This document shows positions 21,250-29,010 of a DNA stretch of 39,693 bases, in pieces. Origin of the DNA: Candidatus Rokuibacteriota bacterium. GTDB taxonomy: Bacteria > Methylomirabilota > Methylomirabilia > Rokubacteriales > CSP1-6. The translations under genes were made by a program, and so were the position numbers. Within the stretch, counting starts at the first letter, position 1. The number at the start of each line of letters is the position of its first letter. The notes under the pieces were generated by a model. That model saw only the letters and a list, made by a program, of their open reading frames with translations, was not told the origin of the DNA and did no database searches. The DNA is taken from the NCBI GenBank assembly GCA_003220225.1, contig QHRU01000071.1, positions 1 through 39,693 on the forward strand, given 5' to 3'.

Positions 21250-21253
<4 letters not shown>

Positions 21254-21573
21254 TCATCCTCGACACCCTGCTGATCGGCGGTCTCAAGTTCGTGCTGAAC
21301 AAGATCGTCGACGCCGTCGACAGCCAGCTCAACGACGACGGCGTCGTGCGCGAGGAGCTGCTGGCCGCGCAGATGCGCCTCGAGCTCGGCGAGATCTCCG
21401 AAAAGGAATTCGCGACCCTCGAGGCCGATCTGCTCGCCCGCCTGCGCGAGATCCGCGAGCGCCAGCGCGGGCCGACGCCGGCGCCGGGCGAGATGCGGAT
21501 CACCGGCATCGAGGTGCGGTTCGACGACGGCTCGGGCGACACCGACGCCGAGGACGACGCCGCCGAGCGGTGA
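21250..21573 (+). CDS. gvpG: Gas vesicle protein GvpG
   Basis: The 107-residue protein matches the GvpG family: an N-terminal hydrophobic segment (MIILDTLLIGGLKFVLNKIVDAV), then a helical region EELLAAQMRLELGEISEKEFATLEADLLARL that carries the GEIS motif, and an acidic tail. GvpG is an accessory protein essential for vesicle assembly in characterised systems. The ATG overlaps the kinase stop and the TGA overlaps the GTG of the ATPase gene. Confidence 0.9.
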
Positions 21574-23582
21574 CGCCGGCGGCCGGATTCCGCTTCTTCG
21601 GAGGCAAGGGCGGCGTCGGCAAGACCACGACCGCGGCGGCGGCGGCGCTGGCCGCGGCCGAGCGCGGGCGACGTGTCCTGCTCGTCTCCACCGATCCCGC
21701 CCACTCGCTCGGCGACGCCCTCGAGCGTCGGCTGTCCGCGCGCCCGTCTCGCCTGCCGACTCGACGCGGTACGCTCGCCGCCGTCGAGCTGGACGCCGAT
21801 CGGGCGCTCGAGCGCTGGCTCGCCGCGCGCCGGCGTCCGCTGCGCACGATTGCCGCGCGCGGCACGTACCTGGACGAGGACGACGTCGATCGCCTGCTGG
21901 CGCTCTCGCTGCCCGGCGTCGACGAGCTGATCGGCCTCATCGAGCTGCACCGTCTCGCGGCCGCCACCCCGCGCGTGGCGGCGCGCGACGTCGTGGTCGA
22001 CACCGCGCCCACCGGGCACACGCTCCGCCTGCTCGCCATGCCCGACACGCTCGCGCGCGTCGCCGGCGTGCTCGCCGACATGCTCGCCAAGCACCGGTTC
22101 CTCGGCGAGAGCCTGGCCGGCGCGCACCGGCCCGATGCGGCCGACGCGCTGGTCGCGGAGATCGAGGGCGAGGCGCGCGCGCTCAACGCGCTGCTGCGTG
22201 ACCCCGCGCGCTGCCGCTTCACGTGGGTGCTCGTGCCCGAGCCGCTCGCGGTCGAGGAGGCGCGCGACGGCGTCCGCGCGCTCGAGGCGGCGGGGATCGC
22301 GGTGGACGAGATCGTCGTCAACCGGGTCACGCCGGCCAGCCGCTGCGACCTCTGTGGCGCGCGCGCCGCGGCCGAGTCCCGGGTGATCGCGCGGCTGCCC
22401 TCGCTCTTCCCCGGCCGCCGGCTCTCCTCGGTGCCGGCGCTGGATCGCGAGCCGCGCGGGGTCTCGGCGCTCAGGCGCGTGCGGCCGAGCAACGCGCGGT
22501 CGGCGGCGCAGCGACTCCCACGATCGGTTCACAGGCTCGCCTCGGCCGTCGACCGGCCTGCGGCTCGCACGGCCATGGAATGGCTCGACGCGCTGGCGCC
22601 GCCGGGCGTGCGCGTGCTCGCGTTCGCCGGCAAGGGTGGCGTCGGCAAGACGTCGGCCGCGGCGGCGGTCGCCCTCGCGCTGGCCGAGCGCCGCCCCGAC
22701 GCGCGCATCCTCGCGCTGTCGACGGATCCCGCGCACTCGCTCGGCGACGCGCTCGGCCTGGCGCTCGGCGACGACGAGCGGCCGGTGCCGGATGTCCCGG
22801 GGCTGGCCGCCCGCGAGCTCGACGCCGAGGCCGCCTTCCGGGTGCGGCGCGAGCGCTATCGCGCCTCCGTCGACGAGGTCTTCGACGCGCTCCTGCGCGG
22901 CTCACGCTTCGACATCGCCTATGACCGCGACGTCGTGCGCGAGCTGATCGACCTCGCGCCCCCGGGCCTCGACGAGCTGTTCGCCGCGCTCTCGCTGGTG
23001 GACGCGGTGCTCGGACGCGAGCGGACGGCGTACGACGTCGTGGCGCTCGACACGGCGCCGACGGGTCACGCGCTGCGCCTGTTCGCCATGCCGGACGCCG
23101 CCCTCGAGTGGGTGCACGCGCTGCTCGCCATCCTCCTCAAGTACCGGACGGTGGTGGGCCTCGGCGAGCTGGCGTCGGACCTGCTCGACGTCGCGCGCGA
23201 CCTGCGCGCGCTGACGGCGCTCCTGCGCGATCCCGCGCGCACGCGCGTGGTGGCGGTGACGCGGCCGGCCGCGCTGCCGCGGCTCGAGACGGCGCGCCTG
23301 CTCCGCGGCCTCCGCCGCCTGCGCATCGCCGTCGGCGCGGTCATGATCAATGCCGTCACTCCAGACTCCGCAGCGCGCCACTGCCCGCGCTGCCGGCGCG
23401 CCGCCGCCGGCGAGCGGCGGGAGATCACCGCCCTCGCCGCGGCCGTTCGCTCCGCCGCGGGACGGCGGTACGCTATGATCTCGGCTCCGGTCGAGGCGCC
23501 CCCGCCCGGCGGGGCCGCGAGCCTCGCGCGGTGGCTTCGGAGGTGGCAGTGGCACGAGCACTCGCAGGGCGAGCACACGTGA
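21570..23582 (+). CDS. Tandem ArsA/Get3-like ATPase in the gvp operon
   Basis: The 670-residue protein is two fused ArsA/Get3 P-loop ATPases. Half 1 has GGKGGVGKT (residues ~11-19), STDPAHSLGDAL, DTAPTGHTLRLL and a CxxC at 259-262. Half 2 has GKGGVGKT (354-361), STDPAHSLGDAL, DTAPTGHALRLF and a CxxC at 605-608. The CxxC pairs match the Get3 zinc site that closes the dimer, so a Get3-like chaperone role is more likely than arsenite pumping; no arsB is near. It may handle hydrophobic GvpA subunits (inference). The linker at ~318-334 is encoded by a diverged junction repeat. It starts at a GTG coupled to gvpG. Confidence 0.9.
   Translation: MTPAAGFRFFGGKGGVGKTTTAAAAALAAAERGRRVLLVSTDPAHSLGDALERRLSARPSRLPTRRGTLAAVELDADRALERWLAARRRPLRTIAARGTYLDEDDVDRLLALSLPGVDELIGLIELHRLAAATPRVAARDVVVDTAPTGHTLRLLAMPDTLARVAGVLADMLAKHRFLGESLAGAHRPDAADALVAEIEGEARALNALLRDPARCRFTWVLVPEPLAVEEARDGVRALEAAGIAVDEIVVNRVTPASRCDLCGARAAAESRVIARLPSLFPGRRLSSVPALDREPRGVSALRRVRPSNARSAAQRLPRSVHRLASAVDRPAARTAMEWLDALAPPGVRVLAFAGKGGVGKTSAAAAVALALAERRPDARILALSTDPAHSLGDALGLALGDDERPVPDVPGLAARELDAEAAFRVRRERYRASVDEVFDALLRGSRFDIAYDRDVVRELIDLAPPGLDELFAALSLVDAVLGRERTAYDVVALDTAPTGHALRLFAMPDAALEWVHALLAILLKYRTVVGLGELASDLLDVARDLRALTALLRDPARTRVVAVTRPAALPRLETARLLRGLRRLRIAVGAVMINAVTPDSAARHCPRCRRAAAGERREITALAAAVRSAAGRRYAMISAPVEAPPPGGAASLARWLRRWQWHEHSQGEHT
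22521..22570. repeat. Diverged copy of the junction repeat inside the double ATPase gene
   Basis: On the plus strand this block aligns with the 3567-3617 copy over its whole length, with one indel and roughly 85% identity by eye. The hairpin is GGCCG-TCGAC-CGGCC (22544-22558), again paired with different bases. It lies in the linker between the ATPase halves and is read through as RSVHRLASAVDRPAART. Confidence 0.75.
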
Positions 23583-24370
23583 TCAAGGAGGACGAGACGG
23601 CGACGTACGTGTACTGCCTGGTGCAGCGCGCGCGCCCCCCCATGCTCACGCGCGCGCCCCGAGGTCTGCCCGGGACGGCGCGGGTGCGGGGGCTGGACGC
23701 CGGTGACGGGCTGTGGCTCGTCGTAGCCGACGCGCCGCTGTCGCGCTACGGCGAGGCGCCGCTCGAGGCCCGCCTGCGCGACCTCGAGTGGGTGGCCGCG
23801 TGCGCCACCGCCCACGAGGCCGTGGTGGAGTTCGCCGCGCGCGGGGGGACCACCGTCCCGCTCAAGCTGCTCACGCTCTTCAACGACGACGAGCGCGCCA
23901 TCGCCCACATCCGCCGGCTGCGGCCGACGATCGACCGCGTGCTCGGCCGCGTCGCCGGCCGCCAGGAGTGGGGCGTGCGCGTACGCCTCGACGAGGTCGC
24001 GGCGCGGCGCCGTCACGTCGAGCGCGCGCGGCGGGCGACGGCCGGCGTCAGCTCGGGTACGCGCTTTCTCGTGCTGAAGAAGGAGCAGCAGCAGGCCGTG
24101 CGGGAGGCGCTCGCGCGCGGGCGCGAGGACGTCGACGCGGCCTTCGAGGCGCTGGCCAGGGCCGCCGACGACGCGCGCCGCCGGCCGCCCGACTCCGTCG
24201 AGGGCGCCGCGCGGCTGCTGCTGGACGCCGCCTTTCTGCTGACGCCGTCGCGCGCCGCGCGCTTCAAGAAGGTCGCGCGCGCCGCCGCGACGCGGCTGGG
24301 CCGTCGGGGCTACGAGCTGACGCTCTCCGGGCCGTGGCCACCCTACAACTTCGTGGGAGGCGTCGCGTGA
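23579..24370 (+). CDS. Gas vesicle protein GvpF/GvpL, second paralogue
   Basis: The 263-residue GvpF/L-family protein begins near the start codon: TATYVYCLVQRA, WLVVADAPLSRYG, AHEAVVEF, TVPLKLLTLF, and ends GPWPPYNFVGG. The start is a GTG (23579-23581) overlapping the ATPase TGA; the frame is open upstream but homology is not. GvpF proteins contact GvpA and are found at the gas side of the shell in some species. Its stop overlaps the next gvp gene. Confidence 0.92.
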   Translation: MIKEDETATYVYCLVQRARPPMLTRAPRGLPGTARVRGLDAGDGLWLVVADAPLSRYGEAPLEARLRDLEWVAACATAHEAVVEFAARGGTTVPLKLLTLFNDDERAIAHIRRLRPTIDRVLGRVAGRQEWGVRVRLDEVAARRRHVERARRATAGVSSGTRFLVLKKEQQQAVREALARGREDVDAAFEALARAADDARRRPPDSVEGAARLLLDAAFLLTPSRAARFKKVARAAATRLGRRGYELTLSGPWPPYNFVGGVA

Positions 24371-24633
24371 GCCGACGGCCGCTGACGCGCGACGAGGCGC
24401 GCGCGATCTTTGCGACCACCGACTCCTCGCTGCTCGAGGTCATCGACAACCTCCTGACCAAGGGCGTCGTCCTCAGCGGCGACGTGGTCCTCGGCATCGG
24501 CGGCGTCGACCTGATCTACGCGCGGCTCTCGGTGCTGCTCTGCGCGGTGGACCGGCTGCTCGAGGTGCAGGGCGAGATGCGGGAAGACTCGCGCCCCCGG
24601 GGCGGGCGCCCCCAGGGAGGGCCACGCCAGTGA
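24367..24633 (+). CDS. Gas vesicle GvpA-family minor protein (GvpM/GvpS-like)
   Basis: The 88-residue protein has the GvpA-fold core LLEVIDNLLTKGVVLSGDVV, GIGGVDLIYARLSVLLCAVDRLL. The GVDLIYxRLxxLLCxVDRL pattern resembles GvpS/GvpM-type minor proteins more than the shell protein. A short Arg/Gly/Pro-rich tail follows. It starts at a GTG overlapping the upstream stop and ends overlapping the next GvpF/L gene. It is the third GvpA-fold protein in the operon. Confidence 0.88.
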   Translation: MSRRPLTRDEARAIFATTDSSLLEVIDNLLTKGVVLSGDVVLGIGGVDLIYARLSVLLCAVDRLLEVQGEMREDSRPRGGRPQGGPRQ

Positions 24634-25301
24634 GCGACGTGTACGTCTACGCCCTGCTCGGCGAGGCGCCGCATCCCGATGCCGGCGCCGGCCTGTGCGC
24701 CGAGCCCCTGCGCGTGGTCCGCGTCGGCGATCTCGTGGCCGCCGTCGGCGAGATGGCCGAGCGGCCACCGGTGAGCGAGGCGACGCTGCGCGCCCACGAC
24801 GCGGTGATCCGCCGGCTCGCGGGCGCCGTCGACGCGATCCTGCCCGTGCGCTTCGGCTCGCTGCTCTCGGAGTCCGGCCTCGCCGACCTGCTCACGGCGC
24901 GAGGCCGCGAGCTGAGCGAGGCGCTGGCGCTGGTGGCCGGCCGCGAGCAGATGACGCTGAGGCTCCTCGGCGCGGCGACGCCGCCGGCGGCGCCGGCGCC
25001 GCCGCCCGACGATCTCGGTCCCGGCGCTCGCTACCTGGCCGCACGGCGCGCCGAGTGGCGGCGCGCCCGCGAGGCGCCGGAGCTCGAGCCGCTCCGACCG
25101 TGGCTGGAGCCGCTCGTACGGGCCGAGCGCGTCACGCGCCACGACACGCCGCCCCTCATCGCGAGCGTCTATCACCTGATCGACCGCGGCGCGGGCGCCG
25201 CGTACCTGGCCGCCGTGGAGCGCGTGGCGCTCGCGGCGGCCCGCGTCGTCGCCACGGGGCCGTGGCCGCCCTACGCGTTCGCGCCGGAGGCGCTCGGATG
25301 A
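24630..25301 (+). CDS. Gas vesicle protein GvpF/GvpL, third paralogue (short)
   Basis: The 223-residue protein is the shortest of the three GvpF/L members. It has SDVYVYALLGEA, RVGDLVAAVGEM, LRAHDAVIRRL, AILPVRFGSLL and the C-terminal GPWPPYAFAPE, which keeps the family WPPY motif. The middle is shortened and Ala/Pro-rich (PAAPAPPPDD). The start is a GTG overlapping the upstream TGA, and its TGA overlaps the gvpK ATG. Confidence 0.9.
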   Translation: MSDVYVYALLGEAPHPDAGAGLCAEPLRVVRVGDLVAAVGEMAERPPVSEATLRAHDAVIRRLAGAVDAILPVRFGSLLSESGLADLLTARGRELSEALALVAGREQMTLRLLGAATPPAAPAPPPDDLGPGARYLAARRAEWRRAREAPELEPLRPWLEPLVRAERVTRHDTPPLIASVYHLIDRGAGAAYLAAVERVALAAARVVATGPWPPYAFAPEALG

Positions 25302-25669
25302 CGCCGCGCACTCCCGGAGACGGGCAACCGCGCGAGGCGTCCGTGCACGTGCGCGAGCTGGAGTCGCTGCGCGCGGAGCTCGAGCGGCGCGTGGGCGATC
25401 TCTCGCCGCCGCGCTGGAACGCCGAGCCCGAGGACGTGCAGCGCTCGGTCGCGCGGCTCGTGCTCACCCTCGTGGAGTTCGTGCGCCAGCTCATGGAGCG
25501 CCAGGCGATCCGCCGCATGGAGGCCGGCAGCCTCACGCCCGAGGAGACCGAGGACGTGGGCCGTGCGCTCATGCGGCTCGAGGAGACGATCCGCGACATC
25601 GGCAAGCGCTTCGGCCTCGCCCCCGAAGACCTCAATCTCGACCTCGGCCCGCTCGGCCGCCTGCTCTGA
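25298..25669 (+). CDS. gvpK: Gas vesicle protein GvpK
   Basis: The 123-residue protein matches the GvpK family. After a charged lead, the conserved block is DVQRSVARLVLTLVEFVRQLMERQAIRRMEAGSLTPEETEDVGRALMRLEETI, followed by the typical ending FGLAPEDLNLDLGPLGRLL. GvpK is an accessory protein needed for vesicle formation. It is the last gene of the coupled operon; the next gene begins 24 nt later with its own ribosome binding site. Confidence 0.93.
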   Translation: MTPRTPGDGQPREASVHVRELESLRAELERRVGDLSPPRWNAEPEDVQRSVARLVLTLVEFVRQLMERQAIRRMEAGSLTPEETEDVGRALMRLEETIRDIGKRFGLAPEDLNLDLGPLGRLL

Positions 25670-25692: not shown

Positions 25693-26913
25693 GTGGCGAC
25701 GAAAACACTCAGGGACAAGTACTGCATCGTCGGCGTCGGCGAGACGGAGTACTCGCGCGGCTCCGGCCGGACGACGCGCGCGATGGCCGTGGAGGCGGTG
25801 CGCAAGGCCATCCTCGACGCCGGCCTGCGCGCCTCCGATGTGGACGGGATGCTCGACTACCAGGGGGGCGATTCGACCTTCGCTCCTCACGTCGCGCCCG
25901 ACCTCGGGATCCGGCTGAACTTCTACATGGACGTGGTCGGCGGCGGCTCCTCGACGGAGGCGCTGGTCGGGCTCGCCATGGGCGCGATCGAGACCGGCAT
26001 GTGCAACACGGTGGCGATCTACCGCTCGATGAACGGCTACTCCGAGTTTCGTATCGGCGGCACCGGCGCCCGCGCGGCGCAACCGGTGCGCGGCATGGAT
26101 CTCGCCCAGGTGCCGTTCGGCATGCGCAGCGCCGGCCAGACCTTCGCGTTCACCTTCATGCGGCACATGCACGAGTACGGGACGACCTCCGAGCAGGTGG
26201 CGCACGTCAAGGTCGCCCACAGCAAGCACGCCTCGCAGAACCCCAAGGCCGTCCAGAAGGAGCGGGTGACGGTGCAGGACGTCGTCGGCTCGCGCTGGAT
26301 CGTCAAGCCCCTGCACCTGCTGGACTGCTGTCTCGAGACCGACAACGCGACCTGCCTGATCGTCACCTCGGCGGAGCGCGCGCGCGATCTGCGGGCGCGG
26401 CCCATCTACGTCATGGGCGTGGCCGGGCGCGTGTCCAAGCCGCGCGTCGACTTCCACTGGGCGCACGGTCCCATCTCGCGCGTGGCGGGCTACTATGCGA
26501 AGGACATCGTCTTCGGCCAGGCGGGCATCCGGCCCGAGGACGTCCACGTCACCGGCTCCTACGACGCGTTCACGTTCACGACCATGCTCCAGCTCGAGGA
26601 ATACGGCTTCTGCAAGAAGGGCGAGGGCGGCGCGTACGTCTCGAGCGGGATCATCGAGCTCGGGGGCAAGCGGCCCAACAACACCTCGGGCGGCCACCTG
26701 TGCGAGGGCTACACGCACGGCATGTCGATGGTGATCGAGAACGTCCGTCAGCTCCGCGGCACGGTCGACGACACGTGCCCGGGCGCCGCGGAGGGCAAGC
26801 ACACCCACGACTACTCGGTGGGCAAGTGCCGCCAGGTCAAGGACGCCGAGATCACGATGAACCTCGGCTGGGCGATGCCGGCCACGGGCTCGGCCCTGAT
26901 CATGAGGAGATAG
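25693..26913 (+). CDS. SCP2-type thiolase-like protein
   Basis: The 406-residue thiolase-fold protein starts at a GTG with AAAGGAG upstream. The N-terminal half shows KYCIVGVGETEYSR and VVGGGSSTEALVGLAMGAIETGMC, where the usual nucleophilic Cys of condensing thiolases is replaced (GGGSS). The C-terminal half has NNTSGGHLCEGYTHGMS, equivalent to the GGHPxGATG motif. Such proteins usually work with a DUF35 partner, which is the next gene, in lipid or steroid side-chain or polyketide-type acyl-CoA chemistry. The substrate is unknown. Confidence 0.88.
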   Translation: MATKTLRDKYCIVGVGETEYSRGSGRTTRAMAVEAVRKAILDAGLRASDVDGMLDYQGGDSTFAPHVAPDLGIRLNFYMDVVGGGSSTEALVGLAMGAIETGMCNTVAIYRSMNGYSEFRIGGTGARAAQPVRGMDLAQVPFGMRSAGQTFAFTFMRHMHEYGTTSEQVAHVKVAHSKHASQNPKAVQKERVTVQDVVGSRWIVKPLHLLDCCLETDNATCLIVTSAERARDLRARPIYVMGVAGRVSKPRVDFHWAHGPISRVAGYYAKDIVFGQAGIRPEDVHVTGSYDAFTFTTMLQLEEYGFCKKGEGGAYVSSGIIELGGKRPNNTSGGHLCEGYTHGMSMVIENVRQLRGTVDDTCPGAAEGKHTHDYSVGKCRQVKDAEITMNLGWAMPATGSALIMRR

Positions 26914-26915
26914 CG

Positions 26916-27425
26916 ATGCCCCAGCCCGTCACCTACCGCGGCATGGCGCTGATCGTTCCCGACAACGATAGTGAGTGGAAGGAGTACTTCGCCCACGCCC
27001 GCCAGCACCGGCTGATGCTGCGCGCATGCAAGGCGTGCGGCCTGATGCGCTACCCGCCCACCCACGCCTGTCCCTGGTGCATGGACCTCGGCTGGACGTG
27101 GAAGGAGGTCAGCGGCCGCGGGACGATCTACTCGTACGAGGTCGTCCACCACGCGATCCAGCCGGGCTTCAAGGACGCGACGCCCTACGGCGTCGTGCTG
27201 GTGGAGCTGGACGAGCAGCGCGGCCAGCCGACGGCCGACGAGGGGCTGCGCATCATCGGCAACCTCGTGAAGCCGGACGGCGTGAGCTTCGAGGACGACA
27301 CGCAGGTCGCCATCGGCAAGCGCGTGCGCGTCGTCTTCCAGGACCTCGCCGAGCACATGGCGCTCGTGCAGTTCGCCCTCAGCGACGAGGCGCCGCCGGG
27401 CCACGTCTGGCGGCTGCCCGAGTAG
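26916..27425 (+). CDS. DUF35 (OB-fold, zinc-ribbon) acyl-CoA-associated protein
   Basis: The 169-residue protein has an N-terminal helix, a rubredoxin-like zinc ribbon with Cys38-x2-Cys41 and Cys52-x2-Cys55 (ACKACGLMRYPPTHACPWC), and an OB-fold domain (GRGTIYSYEVVHHAIQPGF, PYGVVLVELDE, IGKRVRVVF). DUF35 proteins form complexes with SCP2-type thiolases and bind acyl-CoA. The ATG is 2 nt after the thiolase-like stop, with GAGGAG upstream, so the two are co-translated. Confidence 0.92.
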   Translation: MPQPVTYRGMALIVPDNDSEWKEYFAHARQHRLMLRACKACGLMRYPPTHACPWCMDLGWTWKEVSGRGTIYSYEVVHHAIQPGFKDATPYGVVLVELDEQRGQPTADEGLRIIGNLVKPDGVSFEDDTQVAIGKRVRVVFQDLAEHMALVQFALSDEAPPGHVWRLPE

Positions 27426-27426
27426 C

Positions 27427-27702
27427 TCAGAAATACTCGAAGGTGGCCGTCCCTCGCGCCATGCGCACGCGGAGGTCGGCCATGAAGACGAGATAGGGGT
27501 GCGCGCCGCGCGCGACGAGTGCGTCGCGGTCGGACGCGAGCAGGGCGGCCTGCGACCCGGCGTCGAGGCCGTGCTCCGCCATGGCCGCCTTCGCGTCCGC
27601 GAGGAAGCGCGCGCGGAACGCGTCGTCGGACTTCAGCGCGAAGAGGCAGCGGTTGAGCGGGTACGCGCTCGCGGGCGGAAAGCGGTAGTGCATCTCGTTC
27701 AT
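27427..27702 (-). CDS. LigA-like subunit of an extradiol dioxygenase
   Basis: The 91-residue protein has the small helical LigA fold seen in protocatechuate 4,5-dioxygenase alpha subunits: FPPASAYPLNRCLFALKSDDAFRARF, AMAEHGLDAGSQAALLASDRDALVARGAHPYLVF. LigA caps the LigB active site. The ATG (27700-27702) overlaps the LigB-type stop as ATGA, so the two subunits are made together. It converges on the DUF35 gene with a 1-nt gap. Confidence 0.85.
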   Translation of the reverse strand: MNEMHYRFPPASAYPLNRCLFALKSDDAFRARFLADAKAAMAEHGLDAGSQAALLASDRDALVARGAHPYLVFMADLRVRMARGTATFEYF

Positions 27703-28484
27703 AGGGCCCACTCCACCACGGCGTTGCCGTGGTGCCAGGACGGCTCGTAGCAGTAGACCTCGGCCTTCGCGGCGCCGACGGCGCCGAGCACGGTGATCCA
27801 CGTCCGCAGCTCGACGTTGCCGGCCTTGTCCAGCTCCTCGCCCGTCAGCGCGGCCAGCTCGGCGCCGCGCCCGTCGCGCAGCGTGTCCAGGATGCGCCGA
27901 TCCCAGTCGAAGTCGGGCGACGCGTAGCGATCCGTCCCCGGGTAGTGCGACATGCCGCCCGACGCCATCAGCACGACGCGCTCGGGCCGCGCGCCGAGGA
28001 TCGCGCCGAGGGCCTGGCCCCACGCGTGGCAGCGCCGGGGCGTCGGCTGCGGCGGCAGGTACACGTTGACGTGCAGCGGCACGATGGGCACGGCCGGCGC
28101 GGGCATCGTGAAGTGCAGGGGCACGAAGAACGCGTAGTCGAGCCGCGCGTGCTGCGTGTAGAGCAGGTCGAAGCCGCGCTCGATCCCCTGCTCGACGACG
28201 GCGCGGGCGAGCGGCTCGTGGACGGGAAAACGGTACTCATACGGGCCGAAGGTGCCGGCGGCCTCCGCGCCCGCGTAGACGGCTAGTGCGGGCACCGCGT
28301 CGAGGAAGAACGCCTCCACGTGGTCGCCGGCCACGACGGCGATGGCGTCGGGGCGCAGCATCGCGAGCCGCCGCCGCACGCGCGCGAAGGCGGCGTGGAC
28401 GCGCAGCACCAGCTCGCGGTCTTCCGTCTCCGGCCGCGCGATCAGCTGGGGCGTGTGGGCGCAGGCGAAGGCGCCGACGAGCAT
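27699..28484 (-). CDS. LigB-type class III extradiol ring-cleavage dioxygenase subunit
   Basis: The 261-residue protein has the class III fold. Candidate Fe(II) ligands and active-site residues are His10 in FACAHTPQL, the His in VVAGDHVEAFF, and SGGMSHYPG with a conserved His. Family segments VPIVPLHVNVYLPPQP and DWDRRILDTL are present. The enzyme would open a catechol-type ring using O2. The substrate is unknown. It lies 7 nt after the UGSC selenoprotein gene, so the operon joins ring cleavage with two poorly understood proteins. Confidence 0.85.
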   Translation of the reverse strand: MLVGAFACAHTPQLIARPETEDRELVLRVHAAFARVRRRLAMLRPDAIAVVAGDHVEAFFLDAVPALAVYAGAEAAGTFGPYEYRFPVHEPLARAVVEQGIERGFDLLYTQHARLDYAFFVPLHFTMPAPAVPIVPLHVNVYLPPQPTPRRCHAWGQALGAILGARPERVVLMASGGMSHYPGTDRYASPDFDWDRRILDTLRDGRGAELAALTGEELDKAGNVELRTWITVLGAVGAAKAEVYCYEPSWHHGNAVVEWAL

Positions 28485-28491
28485 CAGGCCC

Positions 28492-29010
28492 TCAGGCCGT
28501 CACCCGCGCGAGCACCTCGTCGAACACCTTGTCGGCCAGCGCGCGCACCTCGTCCCGGGTGAGCGGCTGGATCGGATGCTGCACCATGACCGTACGGTAG
28601 CCGGTGGCGCCCAGCGCCTCCGCCTGCGCCTTCGCCGCGCGGGCGAACTCGGTGGAGATGATGGTCGCCGTGGGAATGCCGTGATCCTCGAAGAACACGC
28701 CGTCGTGCACACTGCACGTTGTGCAGGACCCTCAGTCGGCGAGCGCCTCGATGAGCACGTCGGTGGCGCCGACGATCTCGTCGCGCAGCGGGTCGGGCGC
28801 CGGCCGCGCGAAGGTCGGCTTCTTCTTGCGCACGATGGCCTTCGGCGCCGCGCGCTCGCGCAGCAGCTCCTCGAGGCGGTCCAGCAGGTGGTCGCCCTTG
28901 GCCTTCGAGATGTCGAGCAGCGTGACGACCTTGCCGTCGAGGCTCGACGGCCGCGTCGCCGTCTTGCGGGGCACGGCCACGGAGTCGGTGGGGTCGAGAT
29001 ACTCGGTCAT
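28492..29010 (-). CDS. UGSC-family selenoprotein with in-frame TGA (Sec93)
   Basis: Two same-frame halves are split by a single TGA at 28732-28734. Reading it as selenocysteine gives a continuous 172-residue protein with the family signature U-G-S-C (then TTCSVHDGVFFEDHG) at residue 93. Downstream segments GIPTATIISTEFARAAKAQAEALG and VMVQHPIQPLT match UGSC proteins on both sides of the TGA. A hairpin CGTGCA-GTG-TGCACG (28704-28718) follows, with its loop starting 19 nt after the TGA, as bacterial SECIS elements require. The function is unknown, probably redox or thiol-linked. The ATG overlaps the upstream stop. Confidence 0.88.
28704..28718 (-). promoter_or_regulatory. SECIS-like hairpin in the UGSC selenoprotein gene
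   Basis: A perfect 6-bp stem CGTGCA/TGCACG with a GTG loop lies 13 nt after the in-frame TGA. The loop begins with G at +19, inside the known range for bacterial SECIS. An alternative overlapping hairpin CTGCAC-AAC-GTGCAG (28712-28726) is closer to the TGA. Confidence 0.65.

Follow-up and report, generated by a model that had tools for sequence, protein, structure and literature searches.

Are the two open reading frames that follow each other on the minus strand of this DNA, separated by a single TGA, two genes, one broken gene, or one gene whose stop codon is translated? The sequence leads us to answer, with little doubt, that they form a single gene encoding a UGSC-family selenoprotein; the apparent break by a stop codon is almost certainly a codon read as selenocysteine (Sec), an active-site residue. 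The locus lies in a stretch of 39,693 nucleotides, hereafter the window, which belongs to a draft genome of Candidatus Rokuibacteriota. The preliminary description of this DNA had already presented it as a selenocysteine-encoding UGSC gene hidden as two frames, and the limits that it gave are exact (Table 1). The gene is a further member of a selenoprotein family published since 2008 and not a new kind: UGSC was described in that year among the commonest selenoproteins in ocean samples (PMC2398784) and is listed in reviews of 2022 and 2026, its function not being stated (2026: PMC13188914), and the second of these also mentions that 63 selenoprotein genes are predicted in one Methylomirabilota MAG.

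Table 1. Features of the UGSC locus, in positions of the window
Feature	Position	Strand	Basis
Predicted UGSC-family selenoprotein gene	28492..29010	minus	PF24696 across the TGA, NF041046, translation
TGA codon, predicted Sec residue 93, motif U-G-S-C-T-T-C	28732..28734	minus	homologue codons TGA or Cys
SECIS-like hairpin, 6-bp stem CGUGCA/UGCACG, loop GUG	28704..28718	minus	fold, covariation, loop codon
Conserved partner gene, 346 aa	29007..30047	minus	adjoins UGSC in nearly all related loci; fusions
LigB-type extradiol dioxygenase subunit	27699..28484	minus	PF02900, E 2.8e-36
LigA-type dioxygenase subunit, overlaps ligB	27427..27702	minus	PF07746, E 6.8e-09

The frame opens with an ATG at 29010, contains one single in-frame TGA, at codon 93, and terminates at a second TGA (28492-28494), giving a product of 172 residues when Sec is counted. 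Its readthrough translation, MTEYLDPT...LIEALAD-U-GSCTTCSVHDG...RVTA, confirms that the residues following the TGA are GSC, and in our own alignment of the family residues 93-96 fall as UGSC on the [U/C]GSC position. Each half had been said to match the UGSC family, and the Pfam search bears this out, PF24696 being found in the separate halves with E values of 8.8e-15 and 2.6e-26 and in the joined protein with 9.3e-50 over positions 2-171 of 172, the whole of the model, at 169.6 bits for a cut-off of 25. The curated model NF041046, 'UGSC family (seleno)protein', sets the joined protein apart from its pieces: it scores 161.4 bits with the whole and 49.7 and 90.7 bits with the halves, so that the joined protein is the sole one to pass the cut-off of 125. 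An open frame extending in this way across the TGA is well beyond chance, and the gene that annotation would split or truncate is whole. With the known family (PF24696/NF041046) it shares the sequence, the length, the motif, the Sec codon and the adjacency or fusion to a second domain; it differs by its third cysteine (UGSCTTC) and by its position in front of ligBA, and in nothing essential.

The Sec codon is conserved wherever the family was read. Each of the six UGSC paralogues in the genome of the window contains a single TGA, and this soil and groundwater lineage thus leans heavily on selenocysteine for the UGSC family. The family is present in 72 of the 95 genomes of the phylum, where the approximately 150 matches listed have one TGA each and never a TAA or TAG; outside the phylum there is again exactly one TGA per gene, including in the single-contig genomes G188 and G326. 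When homologue loci were read base by base, a TGA stood at the Sec codon in 56 out of 56. The closest named relatives are Candidatus Rokuibacteriota MAGs. In the case of distant, plasmid-borne homologues (33-37% identity), seven of eight have TGC or TGT at this codon, namely those of Natrinema (two), Halorientalis, Halalkalicoccus, Arthrobacter, Roseovarius and Embleya. Selenoproteins are classically recognised by such an alternation of Sec and Cys at one codon, which argues for this reading; the random stops that had been named as a possible refutation do not occur. The eighth plasmid homologue, from Acidovorax, has TGA, and the annotated CDS there is a 291-nt 'hypothetical protein', which illustrates the earlier remark that gene callers truncate or split such genes. 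This TGA-type gene and its partner (Acidovorax sp. T1 plasmid p2-T1, 4923-6455) are carried by a conjugative IncP plasmid.

Translation of the TGA as Sec had been said to demand selA, selB, selC and selD, and the 6.0-Mb assembly from which the window comes, a 97%-complete draft MAG of 167 contigs assigned to Ca. Rokuibacteriota/Methylomirabilota, contains the complete set. Profile searches give SelA with an E value of 9e-153 (509 bits) and SelB with 372 bits for a cut-off of 242; the tRNA-Sec scores 69.7 bits (gathering 47) and has the anticodon TCA, and these three genes are clustered within about 5 kb of one contig (C5). SelD (335 bits) is encoded away from this cluster, by a gene which is itself a selenoprotein gene with one in-frame TGA and a CAGU motif (contig C159; locus L019, 1501-2451). 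Across the phylum, 64 of the 72 genomes that carry UGSC have a SelA above its cut-off, and 19 genomes have SelA without UGSC, for example all those of genus g33. Among the eight UGSC-bearing genomes without SelA above cut-off, one has a fragment of selA beside a complete selB, and a tRNA-Sec is clear in two others; in G057, G060, G076, G077 and G087 a joint search for selA, selB and tRNA-Sec found none that was convincing, and G087 is nevertheless rated 100% complete. These five relatives are the main loose end and count against the selenoprotein reading. Since selA, selB and tRNA-Sec form one cluster in the genome of the window, the loss of a single stretch during assembly or binning is the likely cause. 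The same five genomes carry several TGA-bearing UGSC genes.

The TGA is followed by the hairpin that the preliminary description had reported at +19, with a loop starting in G, as a fit to a bacterial SECIS. The published bSECIS criteria call for a loop of 3-9 nt with G in one of its first two positions, an upper stem of 4-16 bp, a UGA-to-loop distance of 16-37 nt and an MFE <= -7.5 kcal/mol (PMC13188914); here the 3-nt loop GUG closes a stem of 6 bp at a spacing of 19 nt, and the 29-nt stretch folds with -10.1 kcal/mol. This energy is not unusual in comparison with shuffled sequence (z -0.28 for the 29-nt stretch and 0.29 for a longer one), and stability alone was dropped as evidence in favour of covariation and codon choice. 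In 16 distinct homologous stretches, both bases vary at 5 of 8 pairs, and 87.5% of the cells pair, the figure for shuffles being 75%. The covariation score is 0.299 (0.096 +/- 0.029 in shuffles), a value that none of 500 shuffles attained, nor any slid register. In two divergent paralogues the register of the hairpin is apparently shifted. Furthermore, the loop codon is AGT in all 54 homologues having Ser there, whereas AGT serves for Ser in 0 of 65 cases in six genes of the window and in 3 of 157 in ten partner genes. The covarying pairs and the rare serine codon maintained in the loop point to selection on the hairpin as RNA, beyond that exerted on the protein.

These observations bear on three other explanations of the interrupted frame, all of which we reject. 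The least improbable, and still very improbable, is that translation really stops at the TGA and that the second half is a separate protein, re-initiated at the GTG found at 28710, shortly after the TGA, the product then consisting of two chains. A protein starting there would lack the U/C-G-S-C motif, where the family is most strongly conserved. The Cys forms consist of one chain each, and the frame of the fused paralogues passes the TGA and continues into the partner domain. It would be more surprising still if the locus were an ordinary Cys-type UGSC gene struck by a chance nonsense mutation, or by a sequencing or assembly error, even though TGA is one base away from TGC and TGT and the window comes from a draft in many contigs: the same TGA is common to the six paralogues and to all the homologues read, in many independent assemblies and in single-contig genomes, TAA and TAG are absent at this codon, and the SECIS stem covaries. 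Finally, the probability that the genome reads every TGA as an amino acid such as Trp or Gly is negligible. Long TGA-readthrough frames do occur mechanically in the window, but TGA also terminates the UGSC gene, no internal TGA interrupts the frames of the partner, LigB or other neighbours, distant homologues have Cys at this residue and neither Trp nor Gly, and the genome has selA, selB and a tRNA-Sec(TCA).

If the gene encodes a selenoprotein, as we propose, with what does this protein work? The parts of the locus that are worth following are the partner gene, its fusions, the linkage to thioredoxin and a relation to GrdB and PrdB, the selenoproteins of glycine reductase and D-proline reductase. 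The partner lies upstream and overlaps the start of UGSC in the sequence ATGA. No Pfam or NCBIfam family matched it, Pfam having been tried up to E 5. Of 20 loci taken from named genomes, 19 have a homologue of the partner next to UGSC, as do the eight plasmid loci and most of the others examined; four of the genome's six paralogues are fusions, in which the UGSC frame runs without stop into a C-terminal partner domain. UGSC is thus almost always beside, or fused to, one partner of about 330 aa for which there is no family model. The 2008 GOS paper mentions a fusion of UGSC to a domain called 'Unknown_1' (PMC2398784), which is likely to be this partner. Searches of solved structures with the sequences of UGSC and of the partner gave nothing significant, and hhalign showed no similarity between the profiles of the partner and GrdB. 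A class I fumarase was considered for the partner from Foldseek matches and was not retained, these matches being weak (best E 1e-3, TM at most 0.37).

On the downstream side, ligB follows UGSC after 7 nt on the same strand, and the two probably form one operon. Roughly half of the close Rokuibacteriota loci have ligB next to UGSC, with an FmdA-type amidase added in two of them and a cyclase in several. Other UGSC copies are near genes for hydantoinase A/B, RidA and transporters, and the plasmid copies have CoA transferases, CoA lyases, TRAP transporters and phosphosulfolactate synthase as neighbours. Together these neighbours form a catabolic setting, with substrates that vary. Two of the Cys-type forms are accompanied by a thioredoxin reductase gene (trxB), and one of these also by a thioredoxin gene (trxA), in the order trxB-trxA-partner-UGSC in Arthrobacter and as a trxB after UGSC in Roseovarius; the link is limited to these two loci, trx genes not being seen at the UGSC loci of the genome of the window. 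Adjoining the ligA-ligB-UGSC cluster, at 25693-27425 on the plus strand, the window has a thiolase-like gene and, after it, one of ChsH2 type with OB-fold and zinc ribbon, a usual pair in acyl-CoA side-chain breakdown.

The AlphaFold model of the UGSC protein (pLDDT 89.2) has five strands alternating with helices in a parallel alpha/beta layout. Sec93 falls between the third strand (85-91) and the helix 94-109, at a junction of the kind where catalytic nucleophiles typically lie. Foldseek gave weak and generic matches only, mainly to flavodoxin-like, CheY-like and other three-layer alpha/beta structures. The GrdB/PrdB-like genes of the phylum, when read through their TGA, contain UGTCNRC...EIERVGIPV or UPVCHQT...HLEANGIPT, and the counterpart in UGSC, UGSCTTC...FEDHGIPT, is strikingly similar: in both, a UxxC(xxC) motif leads into a helix and 'E..GIP'. 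An hhalign comparison of UGSC with GrdB/PrdB placed Sec on Sec with a probability of 93% and a score of 51; the highest score among 60 column shuffles was 28.6, and reversed templates gave 18.5-19. With the Sec motif masked, the same register scores 31 and the probability falls to 30%. The Sec region of UGSC is, on these comparisons, probably a remote relative of that of GrdB/PrdB. On the other hand, UGSC is much shorter than these proteins and does not match PF07355 (GRDB), PF24696 being the only family found in it, and the partner is not recognisable as a subunit of the GrdE/PrdA type (pyruvoyl proprotein), the Pfam search up to E 5 having assigned it to no family. A PrdB-like gene of the same genome (contig C49; locus L106, about 1387-2320) has an in-frame TGA and the motif UPVCHQT, and appears as two open reading frames when it is not read through.

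The mechanism, and the mechanism only, has a rival of its own: the product may be a genuine selenoprotein that acts as a simple thioredoxin-like thiol-disulfide oxidoreductase and is not GrdB/PrdB-like. The UxxC motif, shared with thioredoxin-like selenoproteins, and the literature, which groups UGSC with Trx-fold proteins (PMC2398784, PMC13188914), speak for it. The comparison of UGSC with one TrxA by hhalign, which yields a score of 14.6 and a probability of 0.5%, weighs against the thioredoxin-like fold proposed earlier for the family, as does a predicted fold in which strand and helix alternate in parallel and whose weak matches lie elsewhere. We regard the thioredoxin-like oxidoreductase as unlikely. 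That UGSC with its partner would constitute a GrdB/PrdB-like reductase is a possibility which we rate higher, at best near an even chance.

For the translation of the gene, the activity of the enzyme, its electron donor and its substrate, we infer the following course of events. SelB bound to the hairpin after the UGA would deliver Sec-tRNA(Sec), so that codon 93 is translated as selenocysteine, and the second UGA of the same gene would act as a stop. The UGSC protein and its partner would work as two subunits, or as one chain in several paralogues. The Sec at the start of the helix would be the nucleophile that attacks or reduces a substrate held together with the partner, and Cys96 or Cys99 together with thioredoxin would reset it to the reduced state, the role that thioredoxin plays for glycine reductase (PMC13188914). 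A Sec-based reduction reset by thioredoxin is suggested by the remote GrdB/PrdB relation and by the trx genes beside some of the Cys forms. The product formed in this cluster would then pass to a ring opening of LigAB type or a related catabolic step.

UGSC would thus be a thioredoxin-fed reductive selenoenzyme of catabolism. Could it also represent a wider family? We tentatively suggest, and consider it possible though not the likelier outcome, that UGSC and its partner make up a family of thioredoxin-fed reductases, often fused and so far unrecognised, distantly akin to the glycine and proline reductases, that would cleave bonds reductively in different catabolic substrates. This family would use Sec in Rokuibacteriota and several bacterial groups and Cys in haloarchaea and some aerobes, and would have expanded to several copies per genome in the relatives of Rokuibacteriota, where up to 12 copies are found. 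The partner, the fusions, the GrdB/PrdB relation and the thioredoxin neighbours together provide a concrete and testable idea of the role of these abundant selenoproteins.

The plus strand of the window also carries, at about 21250-25669, a gas vesicle cluster with GvpL/F and GvpK genes, and GvpG and GvpA-type matches are present in the longer stretch scanned from 16207; gas vesicle genes are unexpected for a soil or groundwater Rokuibacteriota assembly.
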